DNA of 40,866 bases from Micrococcales bacterium (GTDB taxonomy: Bacteria; Actinomycetota; Actinomycetes; Actinomycetales; Microbacteriaceae), in contig CANKLZ010000004.1 in assembly GCA_947483795.1 (NCBI GenBank), positions 1 to 40,866 of the forward strand, in the 5' to 3' direction. The notes beneath the pieces were generated by a model. The model did not search any database, was not told the origin of the DNA, and was given only the letters and a program-made list of their open reading frames with translations. The position numbers were made by a program, and so were the translations under genes. Below, piece after piece: positions 10,372 to 12,085 of this stretch (its first letter is position 1; each line of letters opens with the position of its first letter).

Positions 10372-10400
10372 GACTTCAGAGTAATTCTGAGGTCTTTTTT
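10372..10400 (+). terminator. Rho-independent terminator after the DUF3040 gene
   Basis: GACTTCAGA-GTAAT-TCTGAGGTC stem (one G-U pair) followed directly by TTTTTT. Confidence 0.8.
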
Positions 10401-10504
10401 CATTTAACTCAGAAATATTCAATTTTTGAGAATTTTTCCTCCACCTAGATAGCCCTTGCTTTTATTGACCTCAACACGCCAGAATAGTAAGTTCTTGCAC
10501 GAAT

Positions 10505-10534
10505 TTGACAATAAGTGGATGAAAGTGGTGTAAT
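10505..10534 (+). promoter_or_regulatory. Putative dcw operon promoter upstream of mraZ
   Basis: TTGACA (10505-10510), 18-nt spacer, TGTAAT (10529-10534). Confidence 0.65.
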
Positions 10535-10540
10535 GTGGAG
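10513..10540 (+). promoter_or_regulatory. MraZ-binding box array (three GTGG repeats, 10-bp periodicity)
   Basis: GTGG at 10515, 10525 and 10535 within AAGTGGATGA AAGTGGTGTA ATGTGGAG, about 40-60 nt upstream of the mraZ start. Confidence 0.75.
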
Positions 10541-10577
10541 CATGACTACAGTGGCGAACTAAAGAAAGGGCCAGCAA

Positions 10578-11009
10578 GTGTTTATTGGTACTAGCTATCC
10601 CAAACTTGATGACAAGTTCCGCCTTATCCTCCCTGCAAAGTTCCGTGATCGTCTGGCTGGGGGAGTAATCCTGACTAAAGGACAAGAGAACTGTGTTGTA
10701 GTCATGACTAGGGCTGAATACGAAGCCAGAGCAGAAGCGCTAACCGCTGACACTACGGTTGGAACTCAAGATTTTAGAGTCCTATCTCGCCACTTTTTTG
10801 GCGATGCTGACGAACAGACCCCTGATGGACAGGGAAGAATCCTGGTCACCGCGAAACTTCGCGAGTGGGCAGGCCTCGGCCGCGACCTGGTAGTCGCCGG
10901 TGCTGGTAAGCACATCGAAATTTGGAACCCAGAAACCAGAGAGTCATACATGAACGCTGGTGCTGAAGCCTTTGCAAACTTCTCCGAAGGGGAGGTGAGG
11001 CTGAACTAA
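10578..11009 (+). CDS. mraZ: Transcriptional regulator / division protein MraZ, GTG start
   Basis: 'FIGTSYPKLDDKFRLILPAKFRDRLAGGVILTKGQENCVVV', 'DGQGRILVTAKLREWAGLGRDLVVAGAGKHIEIWNP'. Confidence 0.95.
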   Translation: MFIGTSYPKLDDKFRLILPAKFRDRLAGGVILTKGQENCVVVMTRAEYEARAEALTADTTVGTQDFRVLSRHFFGDADEQTPDGQGRILVTAKLREWAGLGRDLVVAGAGKHIEIWNPETRESYMNAGAEAFANFSEGEVRLN

Positions 11010-11033
11010 CTCCTAGTTTCTAATCTCCAGCTA

Positions 11034-11078
11034 TTTGGCTTCTGGATTTCTTCCCCGATTCCAAAAGCAGCAACCAAA
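11034..11078 (+). ncRNA. Putative mraW RNA motif (structured leader of rsmH)
   Basis: Hairpin TTTGG/CTT/GGA.. pairing with ..TCC/AAG/CCAAA with CTTCCCC (11050-11056) in the terminal loop, between mraZ and rsmH (mraW). Confidence 0.6.
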
Positions 11079-11125
11079 AGGGTTCAAATGGATGGGGTTT
11101 AGGAACTAGGAACTAAAGCGTAAAG

Positions 11126-12085
11126 ATGGCTGAAATCTCATCACTCCACGAACCAGTTCTCTTAGAACGATGCATTGAAATCCTTGGAGAAGCACTCAAA
11201 GGTGAATCCGCAATATTGGTGGATGGAACTCTTGGTCTCGGTGGTCATAGTGAAGCTTTTCTAAAGCGCTTCCCAAACTTAGTTTTAGTCGGTATCGATC
11301 GTGATGAGAATGCACTTCGGTTGGCAGGGGAGCGTTTAGCTCCATTTGCCGACCGCATCCACCTTGTTCAAGCTGTATACAGCGAGATCCCTGAAGTGCT
11401 TGAAGACCTAGGGCTTGAACTTGCCGACGCCATTCTTTTGGATCTGGGAGTTTCATCGATGCAACTCGATGAGAAAGACAGAGGCTTCGCGTACTCATTC
11501 GATGCACCGCTGGATATGCGAATGGATTCAAGCGCAGAGCTAACAGCTGCCAAGATTCTCAATGAATACAAGGAAGATGACCTTACTAAAATCTTCAAAA
11601 CCTATGGTGAAGAAAGATACGCAAAGTCAATCTCCCGTCAAATCGTCAAGATTAGATCTAAATCACCTTTTACAACAAGCAAACAACTCACCGACATCAT
11701 CGCCAAGGTAGTCCCATTTATTCCAGGTAAGAGTTCGGGTCACCCAGCCAAGCGTGTGTTCCAAGCTCTAAGAATTGAAGTCAATCGTGAACTTGAGATT
11801 TTAGAAGAAACAATCCCAGCAGTCATCGATGCTCTAAAGATTGATGGCCGAGTCCTGGTGTTGTCATACCAATCCCTAGAAGACCGCATAGTCAAACAAG
11901 CACTGGTCGCTGCCTCTACTTCTTCAGCCCCATTAGATCTTCCAATCGAACTTGAACAGCATGCCCCAGTTCTTCGACTTCTAGTCCGAGGAGCAGAACA
12001 AGCATCCGAGCAAGAAATTAGTCACAACCCAAGATCAGCCTCAGTTCGCCTGAGAGCTGCTCAAAAGATAAGGAACGCAGCATGA
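11126..12085 (+). CDS. rsmH: 16S rRNA (cytosine(1402)-N(4))-methyltransferase
   Basis: 'HEPVLLERCIEIL', 'LVDGTLGLGGHSEAFL', 'GIDRDENAL', 'ILLDLGVSSMQLDEKDRGFAYSFDAPLDMRMD'. Confidence 0.95.
   Translation: MAEISSLHEPVLLERCIEILGEALKGESAILVDGTLGLGGHSEAFLKRFPNLVLVGIDRDENALRLAGERLAPFADRIHLVQAVYSEIPEVLEDLGLELADAILLDLGVSSMQLDEKDRGFAYSFDAPLDMRMDSSAELTAAKILNEYKEDDLTKIFKTYGEERYAKSISRQIVKIRSKSPFTTSKQLTDIIAKVVPFIPGKSSGHPAKRVFQALRIEVNRELEILEETIPAVIDALKIDGRVLVLSYQSLEDRIVKQALVAASTSSAPLDLPIELEQHAPVLRLLVRGAEQASEQEISHNPRSASVRLRAAQKIRNAA

Follow-up and report, generated by a model that had tools for sequence, protein, structure and literature searches.

Between mraZ and rsmH (mraW) of a Micrococcales bacterium of the Microbacteriaceae lies a structured element which, judged by homology and covariation, is almost certainly a diverged representative of the mraW RNA, a motif of actinobacteria. 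Across this family, we found a fixed four-part order: a Shine-Dalgarno (SD) sequence in the tail of mraZ, the mraZ stop codon, an RNA based at that stop codon and, 10-20 nt beyond the RNA, the start of rsmH. Our explanation of the whole is a cis-acting mraW RNA that would make rsmH translation depend on mraZ translation in the Microbacteriaceae, and we give it a probability of roughly one half (about 0.48). As far as checked, the tail SD, the stop-anchored geometry, a second hairpin and a series of losses within one genus are new relative to the literature searched, which offered no demonstrated function for the mraW RNA described in 2010.

Identity and fold of the element

In the stretch of 40,866 nt analysed here (the window), mraZ (10578-11009, + strand; an open reading frame with the Pfam MraZ domain) ends with a TAA stop codon at 11007-11009, 1 nt before the outer helix of the RNA. 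It is followed on the same strand by rsmH (11126-12085; Pfam Methyltransf_5, MraW methylase), whose own ribosome binding site is weak (-4.2 kcal/mol). The linear gap of 116 nt exceeds the overlap or very short spacing (up to ~20 nt) of coupled gene pairs. Neither a sigma-70-type promoter nor an intrinsic terminator was found in this gap, and the region 10400-11300 contains no terminator-like site (no T run). An earlier note on this DNA had described a leader controlling the whole dcw operon, which was not borne out by an element lying between two genes in a region free of terminator-like sites; the sequence and coordinates it gave proved correct when rechecked against the window. Upstream of mraZ, at 10514-10538, are three repeats (AGTGG-AGTGG-TGTGG) with a 10-nt period, which we take to resemble the MraZ operator (MraZ boxes).

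A permissive Rfam scan (cmscan, 10990-11135) aligned the mraW model RF01746 over its full length (1-107) to 11006-11120 on the + strand, with 26.3 bits and an E-value of 8e-4 when all of Rfam was compared with the 146 nt. Searched alone against the whole genome, the model gave this locus, the expected one, as its sole match (E=0.0015), and the identification made in the earlier note is thus supported. The score is below the 50 bits that Rfam curators set as the gathering cut-off (a convention, not a biological trait), because the element is divergent and A+T-rich, and a default scan of the window at the gathering threshold therefore returned no match. At the same locus in genomes of the same genus, scores reach 54.7 bits (G001, the top score) and 49.7 bits (G026), which links the window's element to members above the cut-off. 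RF01746 was also matched in most other genera of the order. Since the default cut-off conceals most members in the genus, the mraW RNA family is larger than annotated.

The element shares with the published mraW motif (RF01746; Weinberg et al. 2010, PMC2864571), which is likewise found directly upstream of mraW/rsmH in actinobacteria (here with named relatives in the Microbacteriaceae such as Rhodoluna), the position between mraZ and rsmH, the strand, the outer stem, an unpaired position within that stem and the CUUCCCC hairpin. It differs from the motif in being A+T-rich and under the curated cut-off, and in an outer helix that begins at the mraZ stop codon. Moreover, many members in the genus have an extra second hairpin and some are missing the CUUCCCC hairpin, while the tail SD that accompanies the element here is absent from the Rfam model.

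Folded alone, 11000-11125 reaches -44.9 kcal/mol, compared with -27.6 +/- 3.2 for shuffled sequences (z=-5.4; 0/200 shuffles as good). In the minimum-energy fold (+ strand), the outer helix P1 pairs 11011-11023 with 11099-11111, a pairing also backed by covariation, and ends ~14 nt (13-15) ahead of the rsmH ATG. Inside it, the conserved CUCCA of P2 (11025-11029) pairs with UGGGG (11093-11097) between two 1x1 mismatches, 11024/11098 (U.U) and 11030/11092 (G.A). These flanking positions stay mismatched in relatives, the outer one alternating between U.U, A.C and C.A. The inner helix P3, CTATTTG (11031-11037) with CAAATGG (11085-11091), encloses the CUUCCCC hairpin (11038-11068, loop 11050-11056) and a second small AACC/GGTT hairpin (11072-11084). 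Compared with what the earlier note had drawn, the CTT/AAG and GGA/TCC helices and the terminal CUUCCCC loop reappear, and the CUUCCC loop is conserved in relatives, but TTTGG (11034-11038) with CCAAA (11074-11078) is absent and replaced by P3, whose pairing is conserved. The outer pairing proposed there is real as P1, but its ends, 11007-11010 with 11112-11115, are unpaired in the fold; nor is it undescribed, as the note had thought it might be, the outer stem being already part of the Rfam model. A pseudoknot between the CUUCCCC loop and GGGGAGG of the mraZ tail was rejected as not specific: the complement is the SD itself, which is also present in genomes lacking the loop.

Covariation was assessed in all 66 available mraZ-rsmH leaders of the 67-genome genus. 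Among 29 aligned elements, on which RNAalifold was also run, 92% of cells are paired, changes on both sides occur in 20 of the 29 pairs and none of 500 shuffles reached any of five measures. Sliding the partners by 1-3 nt lowers the pairing to 31-46%, and we regard this as the safer control because relatedness inflates shuffle controls. P1 alone, anchored free of gaps, is 81% paired with 136 double changes, against 61 +/- 2% and 52 +/- 8 when arms are exchanged between genomes. Furthermore, P1 contains 51 G-U but 25 A-C cells, an excess that argues for an RNA on the plus strand, and it is retained (82% paired) in genomes without the CUUCCCC hairpin. Compensatory changes are thus numerous in the helices of the element.

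Hairpins and their loss across the genus

The 66 leaders fall into 27 with the CUUCCC hairpin only, 14 that combine CUUCCC with a second hairpin, or with an AACCAA stretch where that hairpin would stand, 11 with the second hairpin only and 14 without the element, whose gaps measure 5-20 nt apart from one remnant of 55 nt. CUUCCC or a near variant is thus found in 41/66. In a phylogeny of MraZ, RsmH and a portion of FtsI that included four outgroups (good support for 54/67 branches), at least four changes in presence are needed for the whole element, and at least four for the CUUCCC hairpin. In L118 and L127, hairpins with unrelated loops stand instead of the CUUCCCC hairpin and are possible intermediates of its loss. 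In several genera, two or three tandem CUUCCCC hairpins per gap were observed, namely in L093, L103, L109 (Klenkia), L108 (Blastococcus), L071 (Quadrisphaera), L259, L267, L273 and L280.

Outside the window's clade, the second hairpin has the loop AAACCAAGC, with AACCAAGC invariant in 14 aligned hairpins. Its stems vary in sequence, and a register-free test gave a mean stem of 5.0, compared with 3.3 +/- 0.3 with exchanged flanks. RNAalifold found no common structure in the second-hairpin set, as loops of two lengths shift the stems against each other. The window's second hairpin, of the ACCAAAAGG type, occupies the same place and is perhaps not homologous. The AAACCAAGC hairpin is retained in leaders where the CUUCCCC hairpin has been lost (for example L012, L014, L118 and L127). 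A search near the operon for a partner of the AAACCAAGC loop gave no conserved one, and neither the CUUCCCC nor the AAACCAAGC hairpin sequence has further copies above chance elsewhere in the genomes of the genus.

A Shine-Dalgarno sequence in the mraZ tail and the geometry of the locus

The last codons of mraZ in the window contain the SD-like sequence GGGGAGGTGAGG (10989-11000, + strand) around the core GGAGGTGA (10991-10998), which occurs once in the window. Its duplex with the anti-SD (-15.4 kcal/mol) is the strongest among the 34 ORF tails of the window, the next being -9.4, and even -12 kcal/mol is reached by only 3 of 11500 internal coding windows. All 66 genomes of the genus have GAG GTG near the end of mraZ, mostly within GAGGAGGTGATTCC, which is complementary to the 16S 3' end GGATCACCTCC; this end was located, intact, in four complete genomes of the genus. 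The genus mean of the anti-SD duplex peaks at -13.6 kcal/mol at the tail SD, versus ~0 to -4 for the greater part of the 80 nt before it. Elsewhere in mraZ of this genus, GTG makes up 77/477 valine codons (16%) and GAG 230/596 glutamate codons. GAG-GTG is also present in 48/48 other Microbacteriaceae, comprising the 29 best MraZ matches and the 19 weakest examined, a set from which L294 was left out for its wrong flank. In the window's clade, the tail EEVIPGLF has become GEVRLN-like and GGGGAGGTGA is kept nonetheless; the same E-to-G change with a retained SD was seen in other genera (L280, L281, L288). The conserved feature of the mraZ tail is the SD and not the peptide.

The tail SD persists in all 14 genomes of the genus without the mraW RNA and therefore does not serve the RNA alone. 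Inspection of the tails revealed no conserved start codon at a usable distance 3' of it, so that we rejected a role in a local start. The rsmH ribosome binding site is weak throughout the genus. In L164 (G055), where rsmH overlaps mraZ, the tail sequence GGAGGTGG of mraZ is positioned as a direct SD for rsmH. Beyond the Microbacteriaceae, a GGAGG core was present in the mraZ tail in 33/76.

In nearly all leaders of the genus, the base of P1 falls at -3 to +1 nt relative to the mraZ stop, and 10-19 nt separate its 3' end from the rsmH ATG. The corresponding medians in 29 other Microbacteriaceae are -1 nt and 13 nt; as these genomes are mostly 2-4 Mb, compaction of the genome does not by itself account for the tight geometry. 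Once the RNA is folded out, the stop-to-start distance has a median of 15 nt, against a real gap of 12.5 nt in those genomes of the genus that have lost the element, and the SD-to-ATG distance is 34 versus 32.5 nt (p=0.21 for the distance difference, by a statistic that ignores relatedness). This equal collapsed distance could also mean no more than that every start requires a certain space for the 30S subunit. Spacing is looser in other families, with 0-60 nt between the mraZ stop and the element and 20-200 nt between the element and rsmH.

Proposed translational coupling and alternative readings

How the four parts would work together is read from their arrangement, and the coupling mechanism itself is put forward as tentative, though it could well be correct. 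The RNA would act in cis on the plus-strand transcript, and the tail SD would hold a ribosome that pauses or terminates on completing mraZ. This ribosome would either open P1, an outer helix close up against the weak start of rsmH, or cross the looped-out RNA to that start, an effective distance of ~15 nt. Regulation would act through the CUUCCCC hairpin, where a putative bound factor would stabilise or loosen the fold. Tethering of a post-termination ribosome by an rRNA-complementary stretch upstream of the stop codon has been proposed for the TURBS of caliciviruses and influenza B; the likeness is one of analogy only, as TURBS belong to a eukaryotic 40S system and share no homology with the element. 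In E. coli rpmI-rplT, the regulator is L20, in contrast to the element here. For that pair, with its +52 nt spacing and coupling by RNA unfolding, an upstream ribosome is likewise proposed to open an inhibitory intercistronic structure (according to the passage citing it in PMC12548453).

Known termination-reinitiation coupling (PMC6728339, PMC10666635) resembles our locus in an SD in the 3' end of the upstream gene, a weak downstream ribosome binding site and a stop and start that lie close together, here in the collapsed geometry. It differs in that the linear gap here is ~100 nt instead of an overlap or a few nucleotides, with a conserved folded RNA in between. Reinitiation is nearly abolished by gaps of ~20 nt (Huber 2023, PMC10666635), so a 100-nt gap would need such a device if the genes are coupled. 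In its bridge form, the RNA would bring the mraZ stop and the rsmH start to within ~15 nt and the tail tether would hold the terminating ribosome for reinitiation, perhaps under control of CUUCCCC. This version we think unlikely. A library screen, as cited in a passage of PMC12548453, found that structure right after the stop codon lowers coupling, which speaks against a bridge. Ribosomes can also couple genes by unfolding (PMC12548453), and the role of the SD differs between gene pairs (Huber 2019, PMC6728339). Some observations count against coupling in either form. The tail SD is predicted to be paired in the window. In Corynebacterium diphtheriae, an mraW transcription start is found downstream of the motif (PMC5784534), while in C. 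glutamicum the 3' end of the motif contains a mapped start (PMC3890552). Given the looser spacing and the patchy tail SD outside the family, coupling is neither the ancestral nor a universal function of the RNA.

The same data bear on other readings of the element. The RNA might be purely a binding site, its CUUCCCC hairpin being recognised by a protein or ligand that acts in trans to set rsmH or dcw expression, with the tail SD and the spacing as side effects. We consider this rather unlikely as the full account in the Microbacteriaceae: the hairpin was lost several times in the genus while P1 and the tail SD remained, its sequence has no above-chance extra copies in these genomes and the invariant SD codons would be left unexplained. 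Yet the CUUCCC loop and its surrounding stem are kept across the class even where neither gene is close to the element, and the tandem hairpins of several genera are as expected of a repeated binding site. Because other families lack the four-part arrangement, and the transcription starts mapped in Corynebacterium fall within the motif or follow it, an older role in factor binding is probable for the CUUCCCC hairpin. Those mapped starts (PMC3890552, PMC5784534), together with a strong hairpin where a regulator gene ends, would also suit a transcription attenuator or terminator, or a processing or stability element that separates the mraZ mRNA from the rest of the operon. Such a role appears improbable in view of the missing terminator-like site, and a stability hairpin alone has no need for a conserved loop, conserved mismatches or abutment to a stop codon.

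Autoregulation, in which RsmH would bind the RNA as a mimic of its 16S target around C1402, is suggested by the gene context and by some mraW 5' arms of the form CUCC-NCCCG, which resemble CACCGCCCG. Nevertheless, the C1402 region ranked only 342nd, 40th and 135th of 1507 windows in a shuffle-controlled 16S comparison, which did not support substrate mimicry and makes this reading very improbable. That the repeat arose by chance, or is a DNA-level palindrome bound by a protein, might be argued from the short sequence and the Rfam score below the cut-off, but is contradicted by the covariation in 29 sequences (0/500 shuffles), the G-U excess in P1 and the RNA-family match at the expected locus, and can practically be discounted.

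In several other actinobacteria (L057, L066, L068, L069, L082, L106), a predicted ORF of ~40-50 mostly hydrophobic amino acids lies between the mraW RNA and rsmH, so that the RNA there precedes this ORF and not rsmH. Returning to the proposed cis-acting coupling in the Microbacteriaceae, the tail SD, the fixed distance from the stop codon and the partial and complete losses within a single genus make the function of the mraW RNA testable by reporters. If the proposal is true, it would represent a structured and possibly regulated coupling of MraZ, a transcription regulator, with the rRNA methyltransferase that heads the division-and-wall operon.
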